This document shows, in pieces, positions 2,543-58,009 of a stretch of 64,000 nucleotides of DNA; the stretch's first letter is position 1, and each line of letters starts with the position of its first letter. The notes below the pieces were generated by a model. The model searched no databases. It had not been told where the DNA came from and worked only from the letters and a program-made list of their open reading frames with translations. The position numbers and the translations under genes were made by a program. Source of the DNA: Sphingobium sp. 66-54 (lineage in GTDB: Bacteria; Pseudomonadota; Alphaproteobacteria; Sphingomonadales; Sphingomonadaceae); the NCBI GenBank assembly GCA_001899715.1, contig MKWI01000006.1, positions 1 through 64,000 of the forward strand, read 5' to 3'.

Positions 2543-2594
2543 ACGCTCTTCGCGTTTGACGGGCCCAAGACAATTCAATGTCCTTCAACTGCCC

Positions 2595-2759
2595 AGGACG
2601 GATCGACATTCCTTTCTGGCGGCCTGCAAATGGCGTCTTTTCGCTTCCGGTGCTTACGGAGCTATCGCCCACTGCGCTCCGGGTCGTAAAAATCCACCAT
2701 TTTGCTCTGCGGTCGTCACCGACTCCGGCTCACCATCTCCATGAATGGCGATCCGTCCT
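2595..2759 (-). repeat. TIR-bounded intergenic repeat, family 1, copy 1 (inverted relative to the 56.9 kb copy)
   Basis: Ends aggacggatcgacattc / tgaatggcgatccgtcct; reverse complement matches 56904-57065 over most of its length. Confidence 0.85.
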
Positions 2760-2776
2760 AGCGCTCCTCAGGACGG

Positions 2777-47833: not shown

Positions 47834-48496
47834 ATGGAAATGGGTAAAACGAAGAGCATGCTGCTCGCCGCTGTTGCGGCTGCGGCATTTGCGATGCCAG
47901 CCAGTGCGACGCTGACGGTCAATTTTGGGGGCGCTTCAGCTCCCATCAGCGGCGTTTCCGGTACCAATGACTTTGAGTTCGACCTTGCTGCCTTGACTCC
48001 GAGCCTGACTCACTACGTCACGAACTTCTCGAGCGTCATAGTGTCGGATGCGCCGGTTACGATCAGCGTCTACAAGATGGGCGCGGAGAGCGGCGACACG
48101 AACTGGGTGCAGATCAACGGCACCAATTATGGCGAAAGCAACGAGACCTGGGCCCTTGGCAATATCTTCCTGACCTCGTTCGACCAAGGCAACGGCGCCT
48201 TGGGTGGTGAGATCAAGTTCACCGGCACCGGTCTGGATGGTACGTTCTACGACCTCGTCGGCAGCGGCCAGGTCGCCGTGTTCCTCCCGACTGGGGTGAG
48301 CGGCAGCTACTCGAACAACAGCCTCTATTTCGGCTTCAACGACTCGGGCAGCGCCGATGGCGATTTCGACGACTACGTCATCCGCATCACCTCCTCCCCG
48401 GTTCCCGAGCCGGCGACTTGGGCGATGATGGTGCTGGGCCTCGGGCTGGTGGGTGCCGGCATGCGCCGCCGCCGCACGACGGTCAGCTTCGTCTGA
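47834..48496 (+). CDS. PEPxxWA-CTERM sorting domain-containing secreted protein
   Basis: Signal peptide and C-terminal PVPEPATWAMMVLGLGLVGAGMRRRR. Confidence 0.94.
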   Translation: MEMGKTKSMLLAAVAAAAFAMPASATLTVNFGGASAPISGVSGTNDFEFDLAALTPSLTHYVTNFSSVIVSDAPVTISVYKMGAESGDTNWVQINGTNYGESNETWALGNIFLTSFDQGNGALGGEIKFTGTGLDGTFYDLVGSGQVAVFLPTGVSGSYSNNSLYFGFNDSGSADGDFDDYVIRITSSPVPEPATWAMMVLGLGLVGAGMRRRRTTVSFV

Positions 48497-48800: not shown

Positions 48801-49688
48801 TCAGGCGCTCCCTGGACTATCCACCCATCGGCGCCACCGGATCGCCCATTTATCGGCAATTCCGCGCGACTTCCCGCCGAACAGTCGCTTCCCCAACGTG
48901 ATCGCCTGCATGTCCAGCGCCTCGATCCGGCGATGGGCTCGCGCCACCAGTCGCATCATCGCCTCGGCTTCGTCGCCCCGCGCGCGGGAGCTAGCCAAGG
49001 TTTCCAGCAGGAGATCCAGATCGTGCCGCTCACCGAGCAGATCGCAGAGTCTCACGACCCGCTTTGCCCGCTTGCCGGCCTCGTCCTCGGCGACACCACG
49101 CAACAGGCGCATATGCTGCCAGTGATATTTGGCCTGCTTGCGCCACTCGTGGCCCGCCTCGGCATCAGCCGTCGCCTCGAACGTCTTCATCGCGCGACGG
49201 GCGGCCTTGATTGTGCGGGTGAAGCCCGCCGCCAGCGCATCCCAGCCATCGGCGTTCACCGCCCAGCTCGCCGCGCGCACCCGTGCCGCCAGCAGAGGCG
49301 CCACGCAACGATCCAGCGCCGCGCGCGCCGTGGCCTCGTCAGCATGATCGGGCGGCAAGGCGGTGCGCAGCGATGCAATCGCCGCCCCATCGCTGCCCGC
49401 CAACCTTGCCAGCGTATCGGCGAGCACGGCGCCATCGCGCACGCCGGCCAGTTGTCGGGCGATATCCCGCAGCGCCGCATTCTCCGCCGCGAAGGACGGA
49501 AAGGCCGGCCGCACCAGCCGAATCAGTCCACGCAGCGCCTTGCAGCGCCGCCGCACTTCGTGGACCACGCGCCCCGGCGGCCGCTCGGCCGCGCGGATCG
49601 CCGCCAACGCCGCATCCAGCTCCGCACAGGCGATCCGCCGCACCGCGCTTTCGACCGTCTCGTCCGATGGCTGAAAGCGGAAGGCCAT
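48801..49688 (-). CDS. CHAD domain-containing protein
   Basis: VHEVRRRCKALRGLIRLVRPAFP; EWRKQAKYHWQHMRLL; conserved His/Arg helical pattern. Confidence 0.9.
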   Translation of the reverse strand: MAFRFQPSDETVESAVRRIACAELDAALAAIRAAERPPGRVVHEVRRRCKALRGLIRLVRPAFPSFAAENAALRDIARQLAGVRDGAVLADTLARLAGSDGAAIASLRTALPPDHADEATARAALDRCVAPLLAARVRAASWAVNADGWDALAAGFTRTIKAARRAMKTFEATADAEAGHEWRKQAKYHWQHMRLLRGVAEDEAGKRAKRVVRLCDLLGERHDLDLLLETLASSRARGDEAEAMMRLVARAHRRIEALDMQAITLGKRLFGGKSRGIADKWAIRWRRWVDSPGSA

Positions 49689-49693
49689 GGCTT

Positions 49694-49838
49694 AGGACAG
49701 GTCGCCGTTCAGTTCAGGGCGAGCCGACAATGGCGATTTTTCGCGACCCGGAGCACAGCCTGCTTTCAGTATGCAAGCACCGAAAGCGCTGAAAAGCGGC
49801 GTTTGCAGGCCGGCATAGGGTGAATGGCGGCCCATCCT
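49694..49838 (+). repeat. TIR-bounded intergenic repeat, family 1, copy 2 (shorter, more diverged)
   Basis: Ends aggacaggtcgccgttca / tgaatggcggcccatcct; shares tttcgcgacccggagc and gtttgcaggccgg core. Confidence 0.75.
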
Positions 49839-52629
49839 AATGCGCGGCGCCCCAGCTCGGCCCGGTGCCGATCTCCACGCCCAGCGGAATGGAGAGCCGC
49901 ACCATCGGCTCGGCGGCGCCGGCCATTACGGTGCGGATGATCGGCGTGGCGGCCTCAACCTCCTCGTCCGCCACCTCGAACACCAGCTCGTCATGCACCT
50001 GCAACAGCATCCTGGTGCGGGTGAGCCCGGCCTGCGCCAGCGCCGGCCCCATGCGGGCCATGGCACGCTTGATGATGTCCGCGCTGGTGCCCTGGATCGG
50101 CGCGTTGATCGCCGCGCGCTCGGCGCCCTGGCGGATATGCTGGACGGAGGCGCGGATCTGCGGGAACCATGTCTTGCGGCCGAACAAAGTCTCGGTGTGG
50201 CCGTTGTGCCGCGCCTTCTCCAGCGTCTCGTTGATGTAGGCGGAGATGCCGGGAAAGCGCTCGAAATAGCGGTTTATCATCGCCTGCGCCTCCTCCGGAT
50301 CAATCTCCAGCCGCCCGGCGAGACCCCAGCGCGAAATGCCGTAGAGGATGGCGAAGTTGATCGTCTTGGCACGCGCGCGCGTGTCGCGGTTGATCTCGCC
50401 GAACAGTTCCTTGGCGGTCGCGGCGTGAATATCCTCACCGCGCAGGAACGCCTCGCGCAGCGGCGGCACGTCCGCCATATGCGCCGCCAGCCGCAGCTCG
50501 ATCTGGCTGTAGTCCGCCGCGAGGATGACATGGCCCGGCTCGGCGATGAAGGCATCGCGAATCTGCCGGCCCACCTCGGTGCGGATCGGAATGTTCTGGA
50601 GATTGGGATCGGTGGAGGAGAGCCGCCCGGTCTGCGCGCCGGTGAGGCTATAACTGGTGTGCACGCGGCCCGTCACCGGGTTGATCTGCGCCTGCAACGC
50701 ATCGGTGTAGGTGGACTTGAGCTTGGCAAGCTGCCGCCAATCGAGCACCAACCCGGCGATCTTGACGCCCTCGGCCTTCATCTTCTCCAGCACGGTCACA
50801 TCGGTCGAATAAGCGCCGGACTTGCCCTTCTTGCCGCCCTTGAGACCCATCTTGTCGAACAGGATCGCGCCGAGTTGCTGGGTGGAGCCGATGGCGAAGG
50901 GCTGCCCCGCCTCCGCCTGAATCTCCTCCTCCAGCCGTGCCATGTCCTGGGCGAACTGGCCGGAGAGGCGCGAGAGCTGCTCGCGATCCACCTTGATCCC
51001 CGCGCGCTCCATGCGGGCGACGACCGGGATGAGCGGCCGGTCGACCAGCTCGTAGATGCGCGTCGCGCCTTCCTGCGACAGGCGCGGCTTGAAGCGGGTC
51101 CACAGCCGCCACGTCACGTCCGCATCCTCGCCGCCGTAGCGGGTCGCGGCACCAAGCGGCACCTGCGCGAAGCTGATCGCCTTCCTGCCGGTGCCGGCCA
51201 CGTCCTTGAAGCTGATGCACGTGTGCTCCAGCACGGCGTGCGCTACCTCATCCATGCCATGCCCGGCGAGCGACTGGCCGGCGTCGAGATCGAAGCTCAT
51301 CACCATCGTGTCGTCGAGGGGGCTGATGTCGAGACCGTGCCGGGCCAGCACGTTGATGTCATATTTGATGTTGTGGCCGATCTTGAGCACGCCGGGGTCG
51401 CAGAATAGCGGCCGGAGCCGTGCGACCACCTCCGCCAGCGGAAGCTGCGGTGGCACCTCGCCGAACATGTCGTCGCTGCTGCGGTGGCCGAGCGGAATAT
51501 AGCAGGCACGGCCCGGCGCGGTGGCAAGGCAGATGCCGACAAGATTGGCGGCGATGCTGTCCAGCGCGTCCGTCTCGGTATCAACGGCGATGATGCCGCT
51601 GGCGTAGCTCTGCGCAATCCAGTGCTCCAGCCGCTCGATGGTCGTCACCGTCTCGTAGGAATCGCAGTCGATCGGCGGCAGCGGCACGAAATCGGGCACG
51701 CCGGGATCGGCCGTGGCGGCGGCCGCAGCAACCGGATCGGGCTTCTCCCGCCCCGGCGCGTGCGCAGCCATGCGCGAGAGCAATGTCTTGAAGCCCTGAT
51801 CCTCCAGAAACGCGCGCAGCGGCTCGGGCGGAATCCCATCGAGCCGCAATTCCTCCAGCATATGCGGCAGCGGCACTTCCTGATGCAGCGTCACCAGCTC
51901 GCGGGAGAGGCGAGCGAGCGCTTCATGCTCGATCAGCCGTTCCTTGAGCCTGGAGGGCTTCATCGCCGGCGCAGCGGCCAGCACCGCGTCGAGATCGCCA
52001 TATTCGCCGATCAGCTTGGCGGCCGTCTTGGCACCCACCCCCGGCACGCCCGGCACATTGTCCACGCTGTCGCCCATCAGCGCCAGCACGTCACCCAGCT
52101 TCTCGGGCGGCACGCCGAACTTGTCCATCACATAGGTCGGCCCGCGCCGCTCGTTCTTCATCGTGTCGAGCATGTCGACGCCCGGCTGGATGAGTTGCGC
52201 CAGATCCTTGTCGGAGGAGACGATGGTCACGTCCCACCCCGCCGCGACCGCCTGCACCGTGTAGGTGGCGATGATATCGTCCGCCTCGAACCCGTCCTCC
52301 TCGATGCAGGGCAGCGAGAAGGCGCGCGTCGCCTCGCGGATCAGCGGGAATTGCGGGACGAGATCTTCCGGCGCCGGCGGCCGGTTGGCCTTATATTGAT
52401 CGTAGAGATCGTTGCGGAAGGTGTGCGAGCCCTTGTCCAGCACCACCGCGAGGTGGGTCGGCCCCTCCTCCTTGTCGAGCGCGTCAGCCAGCTTCCAGAG
52501 CATGGTAGTATAGCCGTAAACGGCCCCCACGTTCAGCCCGTGCCGGTTGGTCAGCGGCGGAAGCTGGTGATAGGCGCGGAAGATGTAGCTGCTTCCGTCG
52601 ACGAGATAGAGGTGATTCCGGGAACTCAT
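49837..52629 (-). CDS. polA: DNA polymerase I
   Basis: LYLVDGSSYIFRAYHQLP 5'-exo domain; DYSQIELRLAAHM and RRAAINAPIQGTSADIIK-like polymerase motifs; start trimmed to MSSRNHLY. Confidence 0.97.
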   Translation of the reverse strand: MSSRNHLYLVDGSSYIFRAYHQLPPLTNRHGLNVGAVYGYTTMLWKLADALDKEEGPTHLAVVLDKGSHTFRNDLYDQYKANRPPAPEDLVPQFPLIREATRAFSLPCIEEDGFEADDIIATYTVQAVAAGWDVTIVSSDKDLAQLIQPGVDMLDTMKNERRGPTYVMDKFGVPPEKLGDVLALMGDSVDNVPGVPGVGAKTAAKLIGEYGDLDAVLAAAPAMKPSRLKERLIEHEALARLSRELVTLHQEVPLPHMLEELRLDGIPPEPLRAFLEDQGFKTLLSRMAAHAPGREKPDPVAAAAATADPGVPDFVPLPPIDCDSYETVTTIERLEHWIAQSYASGIIAVDTETDALDSIAANLVGICLATAPGRACYIPLGHRSSDDMFGEVPPQLPLAEVVARLRPLFCDPGVLKIGHNIKYDINVLARHGLDISPLDDTMVMSFDLDAGQSLAGHGMDEVAHAVLEHTCISFKDVAGTGRKAISFAQVPLGAATRYGGEDADVTWRLWTRFKPRLSQEGATRIYELVDRPLIPVVARMERAGIKVDREQLSRLSGQFAQDMARLEEEIQAEAGQPFAIGSTQQLGAILFDKMGLKGGKKGKSGAYSTDVTVLEKMKAEGVKIAGLVLDWRQLAKLKSTYTDALQAQINPVTGRVHTSYSLTGAQTGRLSSTDPNLQNIPIRTEVGRQIRDAFIAEPGHVILAADYSQIELRLAAHMADVPPLREAFLRGEDIHAATAKELFGEINRDTRARAKTINFAILYGISRWGLAGRLEIDPEEAQAMINRYFERFPGISAYINETLEKARHNGHTETLFGRKTWFPQIRASVQHIRQGAERAAINAPIQGTSADIIKRAMARMGPALAQAGLTRTRMLLQVHDELVFEVADEEVEAATPIIRTVMAGAAEPMVRLSIPLGVEIGTGPSWGAAH

Positions 52630-52699
52630 GGCGCAGGGGATAGCGCGGCCCGGCGGGGGATGCCAGCGGCGAGCCGGCCGCACCCCCATTCCTCCATCC

Positions 52700-53602
52700 T
52701 CAGGCAACGGCAGCGTCCACGCGGGGCTTCACCGGGATGCGCAGGTAACGCACGCCGTTCGCCTCCGCCTCGGGGAAGCGGCCGGCGCGGATGTTCACCT
52801 GGATGGAGGGGAGCAGCAGCCTGGGCACCGCCAGACCCGCGTCGCGCGCCTCACGCATCGCCACGAAATCATCCTCGGATACGCCGTCATGCACATGCAC
52901 GCTGGTGCGCCGCTGCTCGGCGACCGTGGTCTCCCAGCGATACTCGTCACGGCCGGGCGCCTTGTAATCATGGCACAGGAACAGCCGCGTCTCGCCGGGC
53001 AGGCTCAGCAGCCGGCGGATCGAGCGATAGAGCGTGCGCGCGTCGCCGCCGGGGAAGTCGGCGCGGGCGGTGCCATAGTCCGGCATGAACAGCGTATCGC
53101 CCACGAACACCGCGTCGCCGATGCGATAGGCCATGTCTGCCGGCGTGTGACCCGGCACGTGCATCGCCTCCACGGTGAGCGCCCCGAGCGCGAACCGCTC
53201 GCCATCCGCGATCAATCGGTCGAAGTCGGAGCCGTCAGTCCTGAGGTCGGTCATCGCAAAAACCGGACGGAAGATGCGCTGCACGTCGCGGATATGCGCG
53301 CCGATGCCGATCCAGCCGCCGCTGCGTGCCTTGATATAGGGCGCGGCCGAAAGATGGTCGGCATGGGCGTGCGTCTCCAGGATCATGGCGATGCGCCAGC
53401 CGCGCGCTTGCGCCGTGGCGACGATCCGCTCGGCCGAGCGGATATCCGCCTCGCCCGAAGCCAGATCGAAATCCAGCACCGGGTCGATCACCGCCGCATC
53501 ACCCGTGGCGGGATCGGCGACCAGATAGCTGATCGTGTTGGTGGGTTCGTCGAAGAACGCTTCGATCACGGGGCCGGAAGCGGGGGACGGATGCGCGGAC
53601 AT
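52700..53602 (-). CDS. MBL-fold metallo-hydrolase, Blh/ETHE1-like persulfide dioxygenase family
   Basis: ETHAHADHLSAAPY (HxHxDH), PGHTPADMAYRIGDAVFVGDTLF; divergent from an ArsR/BigR-type regulator. Confidence 0.85.
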   Translation of the reverse strand: MSAHPSPASGPVIEAFFDEPTNTISYLVADPATGDAAVIDPVLDFDLASGEADIRSAERIVATAQARGWRIAMILETHAHADHLSAAPYIKARSGGWIGIGAHIRDVQRIFRPVFAMTDLRTDGSDFDRLIADGERFALGALTVEAMHVPGHTPADMAYRIGDAVFVGDTLFMPDYGTARADFPGGDARTLYRSIRRLLSLPGETRLFLCHDYKAPGRDEYRWETTVAEQRRTSVHVHDGVSEDDFVAMREARDAGLAVPRLLLPSIQVNIRAGRFPEAEANGVRYLRIPVKPRVDAAVA

Positions 53603-56166: not shown

Positions 56167-56400
56167 ATGGCGCGCGATACGGGCAAGACGGCGCGGCTGG
56201 CGGTCGGCATCTGGTATAACGACCGCACCGGCCACATCCATGTCGCGGCCGCCGGCCACTTCATCTCGACGGTGAGCGGCGATCCGGCGTCGAAGCGCTA
56301 TCATCCCAATCTCTATCGCAAGCTGGCGACCTGCCTGCGCGACATGGGCAAGCCGCACCCACCGATCGCGCCTGCCAAGGGCGCGCCGGAACCATGCTGA
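56167..56400 (+). CDS. Small conserved-looking hypothetical protein
   Basis: 77 aa ORF overlapping the ruvC start by 7 nt; no motif recognised. Confidence 0.5.
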
Positions 56401-56888
56401 TCCTCGGTCTCGATCCCGGCCTCGGCACCACCGGCTGGGGGCTCGTCCGGGCAGAGGGCAACCGCCTCTCGCACGTCGCCAACGGCCAGATCCGCACCGA
56501 GGCGAGCGAACCGCTGCCCCGCCGGCTGGTCGCGCTGGACGCGGCGTTGGCCACGCTGCTCGCCACCCACGCGCCCGATCAGGCGGCGGTGGAGGAAGTG
56601 TTCGTCAACACCAACCCGCAGTCCACGCTCAAGCTGGGGCAGGCGCGCGGCGTCGTGCTGCTCGGCGCGGCGCGCACCGGCATCCCGGTCGGCGAATATG
56701 CCGCGCGGCTGGTCAAGAAGGCGGTCGTCGGCGTCGGCAATGCCAGCAAGGATCAGGTCCACGCCATGGTCGCGCGGCTGCTGCCGGGCGTGCGCATCGC
56801 CGGGCCGGATGCGGCGGATGCCCTCGCCATCGCCATCACCCATGCCCACCATGTCGCGAGCGCGCGGCGGATACCGGGCCTGCGATAG
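56394..56888 (+). CDS. ruvC: Crossover junction endodeoxyribonuclease
   Basis: [54 protein letters not shown]. Confidence 0.96.
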
Positions 56889-56903: not shown

Positions 56904-57065
56904 AGGACGGACCGCCATTCAGGAGATGGTGAGCCGGAGTCGCAGACGACGGGCAAAATGGTTGATTTTCGCGACCCGGAGCGCAGCGGACTATAGGCCC
57001 GTAAGCACCGGAAGCGCGAAAATGCGCCATTTGCAGGCCGCCAGAACTGAATGGCGATCCGTCCT
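56904..57065 (+). repeat. TIR-bounded intergenic repeat, family 1, copy 3 (reference copy)
   Basis: 18 bp TIRs aggacggaccgccattca / tgaatggcgatccgtcct (one mismatch) plus internal imperfect IR 56953-56973 / 57014-57034. Confidence 0.88.
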
Positions 57066-57402
57066 AGCCCCGCCCCCAGAACAGAAACGCCACCGCGCCC
57101 ATCAGGCAAGCGAAGGCCCCGGCGTGCCGCCAGCCGAGCGGCTCGCCCAGCACCGCCACCATGAACACGCCGAACACGGTCAGCGCGATTGCCTCCTGCG
57201 CGATCTTGAGCTGCCCCGCGCTCCAGCCGCTCGCATAGCCGATCCGGTTGGCCGGCACCGCAAAGCAATATTCGAAGAAGGCGATGCCCCAGCTTATCAG
57301 GATGACCAGCAGCAGCGGCCGGGCCATGCCGCCCTTGAGATGCCAATACCAGGCGATGGTCATCAGGATATTGGAGGCGAAGAGCAGTGCGACGGTCGGC
57401 AT
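57064..57402 (-). CDS. DMT family protein (DUF486)
   Basis: TVALLFASNILMTIAWYWHLK; WGIAFFEYCFAVPANRIGY. Confidence 0.88.
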   Translation of the reverse strand: MPTVALLFASNILMTIAWYWHLKGGMARPLLLVILISWGIAFFEYCFAVPANRIGYASGWSAGQLKIAQEAIALTVFGVFMVAVLGEPLGWRHAGAFACLMGAVAFLFWGRG

Positions 57403-57466
57403 GATCCGCTGATGCCAGCGCCCGCAACCGCGCGCCATGGGGAAAATGACGGGAGGCCGCCTCTCC

Positions 57467-58009
57467 TTACAGGCTGGCGACCCGGGCGAAGATGCGATGG
57501 AGCAGCTCGGCGCACTGTTCCAGCTCCGCATCGTCGAGATCGGCGAGCACGGCGGCGCGCTCCTGATCGAGGATCGGCTGGATTTTCTTCACCACCGCCA
57601 TGCCGGCCGGGGTGAGCGAAATCAGCTTCGAGCGCCCGTCGCGCGGATTGTCCACGCGCGTGATGAGCCCGTCTGCGACCAGTCCCTCCACTACCCGCAC
57701 CAGCGTCGGCCACTGCACGAACAGGCGCTGGCCGACATCGGTCAGCGTCGCCGGCTGCGGCCCAAAAGCGAGCGTGAACAGCGCCTGCCAACGCGCCCGC
57801 GTCTGCCCCGTCTCGGCGCGCAGCCTGTTGTCGATATGGGTAATCCACGAGCGGCCGGCCATGACCAACAGCCGCGAGAGGCGATATTCCCGGTCCAGCC
57901 GCGTCCCCGCGGGATAGAAATCGTCGTAGCGGTTCGCCCACGATTCGAAGTCGCCGATCCGCTCGCCCCGCGCGCACGCTTCACCCTTGCCGTCTGCCCG
58001 CGCAGCCAT
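57467..58009 (-). CDS. MarR family transcriptional regulator
   Basis: TLTDVGQRLFVQWPTLVRVVEGLVADGLITRVDNPRDGRSKLISLTPAG winged helix. Confidence 0.9.
   Translation of the reverse strand: MAARADGKGEACARGERIGDFESWANRYDDFYPAGTRLDREYRLSRLLVMAGRSWITHIDNRLRAETGQTRARWQALFTLAFGPQPATLTDVGQRLFVQWPTLVRVVEGLVADGLITRVDNPRDGRSKLISLTPAGMAVVKKIQPILDQERAAVLADLDDAELEQCAELLHRIFARVASL

Follow-up and report, generated by a model that had tools for sequence, protein, structure and literature searches.

The locus examined here poses the question of whether a palindromic intergenic repeat in Sphingobium sp. 66-54 is a mobile element and, if so, what moves it and what keeps its two halves complementary. The window, by which we mean the whole stretch of 64,000 nucleotides that was analysed (contig MKWI01000006.1, positions 1 to 64,000), holds the repeat at 56904-57065, where a first-pass annotation had proposed a non-autonomous mobile or REP-like element with terminal inverted repeats of about 18 bp. 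Its description of the ends was accurate, the terminal 18 bases being inverse complements with one mismatch, and the long hairpin that it expected of the whole element was recovered: the strand of copy 1 forms a single extended hairpin at -86.7 kcal/mol, compared with -54.1 +/- 3.9 kcal/mol for 200 dinucleotide shuffles (z -8.5). The related copies that it placed at 2595-2759 (inverted) and 49694-49838 (diverged) are real and extend over 2593-2761 (minus strand) and 49692-49840 (plus strand); together with copy 1 they are the only three matches of a covariance model of 148 positions (R1) in the window (E 3e-39, 3e-31 and 1e-30). The mobile unit is bounded by TA on both sides, the element proper running from GG to CC, and the left flank of copy 1 is now CA, not TA (Table 1). 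On either side of copy 2 (window ~2527-2545 and 2780-2797) stands a short inverted repeat, of type CCTTCGACAAGCTCAGG / CCCGAGCTTGTCGAAGGG, which belongs to another repeat family outside the element.

Table 1. Copies of the repeat in the window, their parts and the neighbouring genes.
Feature	Position	Strand	Remarks
Copy 1	56904..57065	+	Long form with additional arm segment, A-type ends; 152 bits with R1 model (E 2.9e-39)
Copy 2	2595..2759	- (inverted)	A-type ends, long form; R1 model 123 bits; 86% identity to copy 1
Copy 3	49694..49838	+	Diverged, short form without ~20-bp arm segment; R1 model 120 bits
Copy 1, left terminal inverted repeat	56904..56921	+	Complementary to 57048-57065, one mismatch
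Copy 1, right terminal inverted repeat	57048..57065	-	Complementary to 56904-56921; exact match to A-type end pattern
Copy 1, hairpin core (class-wide conserved structure)	56922..57047	+	R2 model 90.9 bits, E 8e-19
Copy 2, hairpin core	2613..2740	-	R2 model 71 bits
Copy 3, hairpin core	49712..49819	+	R2 model 93.6 bits
TAG stop of DUF486/DMT gene	57064..57066	-	TA target plus first G of element; ORF 57064-57531 ends there
TAG stop of polA	49837..49839	-	TA target plus end of element; ORF 49837-52707 ends there
ruvC, converges on copy 1 from left, ~14 bp off	56394..56888	+	PF02075, E 5.6e-46
DUF486/DMT_6 gene, converges on copy 1 from right	57064..57531	-	PF04342, E 9e-41
polA, 3' end abuts copy 3	49837..52707	-	PF00476, E 4e-144
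CHAD-domain gene, follows polA downstream with copy 3 in between	48801..49688	-	PF05235, E 1.8e-24

The genome-wide search for further copies that the first-pass annotation had recommended found numbers far above chance, with 44 BLASTN matches and 53 distinct places matched by R1 in the 3.996-Mb genome. Most of these copies are about 146-170 bp long, dispersed and without coding capacity, and in well-preserved copies the 18-bp terminal inverted repeats are symmetric, all as in miniature inverted-repeat transposable elements (MITEs). The named loci closest to the ruvC locus of this genome come mostly from Sphingobium. Within the genus, 54 of 61 genomes carry the element, while a single genome among 40 from other genera has a match; a search of phages gave none. 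Sphingobium sp. 66-54 also contains truncated elements, 94-130 bp in length, in which both ends are retained and the core is partly or wholly lost (L214 2051-2160, L227 2424-2517, L226 2688-2816). In other copies of this genome (e.g. L025, L026 and L029) the same core has ends of a second type, TAGGCGCTGTCTGCATTC, and no insertion sequence (IS) with TAGGCGCTGTCTGCATTC ends was found there.

Orthologous empty sites reveal how the element inserts. The clearest is that of locus L188, filled in one genome and empty in three species (L232, L233 and L234), where GGGCTA/GGCG has become GGGCTA/GGGGCGATCGA...TCGATTGCCCC/TAGGCG, a 146-bp insertion with duplication of TA. The empty site L242 agrees with filled L185 in showing a duplicated TA, as does empty L244 with filled L187 at weaker flank identity, so that the check for target-site duplications suggested by the first-pass annotation gave a positive answer. 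Insertion is mostly into sites of the YTAR form. A 4-bp duplication of CTAG was considered and ruled out, because the base to the left of the first TA and that to the right of the second are often not the ones that CTAG would give (e.g. CTA...TAA).

A candidate source of transposase is found in relatives. In genome G016, an 854-bp stretch has the element's ends and TA flanks, and two overlapping frames within it encode an IS5-family transposase (PF13340, PF01609, NCBIfam NF033580). Elements of this family, ~850 bp long with TA flanks and ends of the GGCCGGATCGACATTCA type, occur in G016, G132, G067, G019, G112 and G014, and the proteins of the last five are relatives at 68-72% protein identity. 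Genome G132, with at least seven near-identical copies with GRGCGGATCGACATTT ends, offers a good candidate for an active partner. The transposase sharing the terminal repeats that had been proposed as a check thus exists in six other members of the genus and not in the genome of Sphingobium sp. 66-54 itself, where no partner IS was found: its best IS5 match has 48% identity and lacks such ends, and the unpaired end matches fetched in a search for long elements had no matching inverted end at IS distance, some of them being short remnants. The agreement between IS and repeat is confined to the terminal ~18-20 bp (by inspection, with L262); the interior of the repeat is unrelated and has no transposase gene, and it is therefore not a simple internal deletion of the G016-type IS. 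Nor is it a plain deletion product of another known IS, as the ISs that were found have nothing but the ends in common with it. Even there, the first 4-5 bases of an IS and of a MITE sometimes differ within one genome (G016, G014).

In Sphingobium sp. 66-54, 20 of 45 copies lie in convergent gaps, against a background of 119 in 713 neighbour pairs, and two of the 45 lie between divergent genes. Repeatedly, insertion has used the TA of the stop codon of an adjacent gene, where a TAG is completed by the G with which the element begins; in the window this has happened to the DUF486 gene at copy 1 and to polA at copy 3. Among other members of the genus, the stop codon of a gene coincides with the 3' end of the element in 23 of 42 distinct copies, whereas among CTAG sites in non-coding sequence and stop codons taken together the share of stop codons is 28%, an excess with P 3e-4 even if every target is taken to be CTAG and P 9e-9 for YTAR. 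There, the stop abuts the 3' end only in 19 copies and the 5' end only in three; in Sphingobium sp. 66-54 the corresponding numbers are 12 and three, and both sets combined give 31 versus 6 (P 4e-5), with the caveat that genes were predicted by a simple codon-usage caller throughout these stop-codon and orientation counts and that copies in different genomes may share ancestry. The two ends hardly differ, so the orientation must be determined either by selection or by a feature of the element's interior. It is a bias that well-preserved copies of other species already show and that ordinary models with symmetric ends do not predict.

We put the probability at roughly 85% that the element is a MITE moved in trans by the transposases of 850-bp IS5-family elements that have the same ends, and that it inserts into TA, by preference that of stop codons. 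Its status as a MITE is well supported, and the non-autonomous mobility proposed in the first-pass annotation is borne out by the TA-duplicating insertions and by the IS5-family elements with the same ends; mobilisation by these transposases is very probable, judging from sequence comparison. The MITE is a unit of 146-170 bp with 18-bp terminal inverted repeats that inserts, probably through the IS5-family transposase, into the TA of a YTAR-like site, duplicating the TA and preferring that of a TAG or TAA stop codon. As each end starts with G, the junction of TA and G rebuilds a TAG and leaves the gene unharmed, which probably explains how such insertions are tolerated. The IS5-family elements of other genus members probably did the mobilising, and the copies in Sphingobium sp. 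66-54 may now be stranded relics. The core, for its part, may work in folded, single-stranded form, as ssDNA or RNA, to which a protein most likely binds while the element transposes or replicates; this folded core may also decide the orientation. MITE and IS5-family transposase would form a testable pair in a genus of pollutant degraders.

Several known systems resemble parts of this picture. MITEs of the ERIC, Correia and RUP type are intergenic and palindromic, measure ~100-160 bp, duplicate TA and have size variants due to internal deletion; the element is like them in size, location, palindromy and TA duplication, and differs in sequence and host taxa. We know of no MITE with a core common to a whole class and exchangeable ends. 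With members of the IS5 family (NCBIfam NF033580, transpos_IS5_3) the element has ends and TA flanks in common, but not the interior or the gene. The closest known analogue, likened by description, is formed by Bru-RS1 and Bru-RS2 of Brucella, alphaproteobacterial palindromic repeats of 103-106 bp described as insertion targets of IS711 (IS6501). This IS is 842 bp long, has overlapping ORFs and inserts at YTAR sites with duplication of TA (PMC2266754, PMC3163539, PMC10800456). Unlike the element described here, which carries IS5-type ends, the Bru-RS repeats are described as targets of IS711 and not as carriers of its ends.

The core of the element has a wider distribution than its ends. A plasmid search recovered the whole element at 88% identity between two convergent genes in Shinella (L308 and Shinella plasmids), which suggests, on sequence grounds, transfer between Sphingomonadales and Rhizobiaceae, and it recovered the core, between outer arms of very different sequence, from Novosphingobium, Phyllobacterium, Agrobacterium/Allorhizobium, Mesorhizobium, Rhizobium, Ensifer, Aminobacter and Bosea. 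A model of the 108-nt core (R2) matches 19 of 387 sampled alphaproteobacterial genomes, from 17 genera (E <= 1e-6). In an alignment of 50 core sequences, 95.2% of the pair cells are paired, compared with 72.9% after shuffling, and 23 of 26 pairs have changes on both sides (0 of 500 shuffles), counts that lean towards the model because the alignment was fitted to it. Sliding the partner by 1-3 columns lowers the pairing to 29-37%, and a fresh RNAalifold prediction has double changes in 31 of 34 pairs; given this prediction and the size of the effect, the fitted alignment is unlikely to be the source of the covariation. Several unpaired or mismatched bases are nearly invariant (GAGAA, AGCGC-AG opposite GAGCA, and AAGCGCAG), suggesting a shape that is recognised. 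Rfam, at gathering and relaxed thresholds, has no match in the window or to the core in 20 loci, the only hit being a tmRNA beside the core in L321 (genome G378, 1098-1608), where the core copy directly adjoins the tmRNA gene. A search of openly available literature for the core sequence returned nothing but an unrelated match. In Aminobacter the core copy lies between two electron-transfer-flavoprotein genes, and the Rhizobium and Ensifer copies have flanking sequence in common with it on one side and a compensatory change in the arms; in all three (L313, L314 and L315 for Ensifer, Aminobacter and Rhizobium) the core is antisense to the electron-transfer-flavoprotein operon, as named from the Aminobacter annotation.

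The two strands of the core are not equivalent. Counted over 77 copies from Sphingobium, G-U cells outnumber A-C cells by 294 to 38 in the core, compared with 47 to 32 in the terminal arms. In 74 of these copies the plus strand gives the more stable fold, the mean difference being 9.7 kcal/mol, and copy 1 of the window is one of the three exceptions. A strand-specific structure is thus carried by the plus strand of the core and not by the terminal inverted repeats. In five unrelated genomes the plus strand lies on the C-rich strand, opposite to the GC skew, in 23 of 24 copies (P 3e-6), and in Sphingobium sp. 66-54 it does so in 30 of 45 (P 0.04). In those five genomes, most copies face with their 3' end a gene that is transcribed in their direction and whose stop codon is 4-21 bp away. 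The outer arms differ between genomes, between copies and even between orthologous copies, yet remain complementary. For the arms of copies in G453, G438 and G143, matched flanks score 10.7-11.8 and mismatched flanks 5.2-6.5, and orthologous copies in G453 and G522 have different arms that are palindromic in both. One G453 copy (L392) still has CTAAGACCAATCGACATTT, near the Sphingobium ends. Outside TA, the Sphingobium copies have no extended palindromy (5.93 versus 5.86).

Arms that change quickly and in pairs are as compatible with template switching from one side of the hairpin to the other as they are with selection, and copying of one arm onto the other is a documented process (PMC8794818, PMC7202029). 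That template switching, and not selection, keeps the arms complementary, with symmetry as a by-product, is possible as a general account, though we would not favour it. It is encouraged by private symmetric changes in single copies, by the quite different palindromic arms just described, and by the outer arms in Sphingobium sp. 66-54, which have 77 compensated double changes to 69 single ones (a count that mixes end types A and B, which inflates the doubles) compared with 43 to 187 in the inner pairs. Template switching would, however, erase mismatches, and the core keeps a near-invariant G-U pair, a bulge, loop bases and the excess of G-U over A-C. We therefore regard the process as plausible for the arms and not for the core. 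The first-pass annotation had taken the symmetry as a sign of selection on structure; the strong covariation and strand specificity of the core uphold that idea, whereas the symmetry of the terminal repeats is expected of any MITE and their arms could stay complementary by template switching. Should the core prove to be a single homologous structure class-wide, it would offer a natural test between the two. Another idea, that the core copies of distant genomes had entered the loops of terminator hairpins already present at those places, and so acquired their copy-specific palindromic flanks, is very unlikely. The joined flanks of L391 (G453) and L393 do resemble terminators after a stop codon, but the empty L391 site in two relatives, G522 and G520 (L438, L439), has no palindrome at all, which contradicts the idea at one locus and indicates that the L391 arms came with the element; several arms, moreover, look on inspection as if they had decayed from a single end sequence, CTAAGACCAATCGACATTTGAAGC.

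A function for the host, with the hairpin serving as a 3'-end structure (terminator or mRNA stabiliser) and with location, covariation and orientation arising from selection after insertion, would accommodate the near-constant position at gene 3' ends and rarity between divergent genes, the retention of copies with compensatory change at what is apparently one orthologous electron-transfer-flavoprotein place, and the class-wide covariation. We consider it improbable all the same, because genes mostly enter the element from its 3' side, so that their transcripts would hold the complement of the structured strand, with A-C in place of G-U and the mean stability loss given above, which disfavours a plain 3'-UTR role; in addition, the orientation bias is already present in well-preserved copies of other species, and insertion sites are polymorphic between species. 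REP sequences and REPINs, mobilised by RAYT transposases, insert without target duplication, and the element duplicates TA. Palindromic repeats at gene 3' ends are otherwise a point of likeness, as with Br-REP1 and Br-REP2 of Bradyrhizobium (PMC5082802), and REP units are shorter, given as 20-40 bp (PMC3733652). Movement by a RAYT (Y1) transposase, with folded single-stranded DNA as its substrate, would suit the imperfect hairpin with conserved mismatches, the strand asymmetry and the orientation opposite to the GC skew. We nevertheless regard it as extremely unlikely, and the REP-like label of the first-pass annotation does not hold in its strict sense: a search for Y1 transposase (PF01797) had no match in the genome of Sphingobium sp. 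66-54 and was positive in control genomes, and an element of 146-170 bp with TA duplication and IS5-type ends is of another kind.

Alongside the MITE with its IS5-family partner, which remains our preferred reading of the element as a whole, we tentatively suggest that the core could be an undescribed structured nucleic acid found across the Alphaproteobacteria and surviving because it travels between different transposon ends, that is, a mobile folded single strand recognised by a protein of the host or of transposition and set in fixed orientation at stop codons; on balance we lean against this stronger proposal. Were the class-wide core copies all homologous, the structure would represent an RNA family that is still missing from the catalogues or else a signal in folded DNA. 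Elsewhere in the window, at 128-799 and 47834-48496, are two small secreted proteins with a PEP-CTERM-like sorting signal at the end (VPEPATWAMM...).
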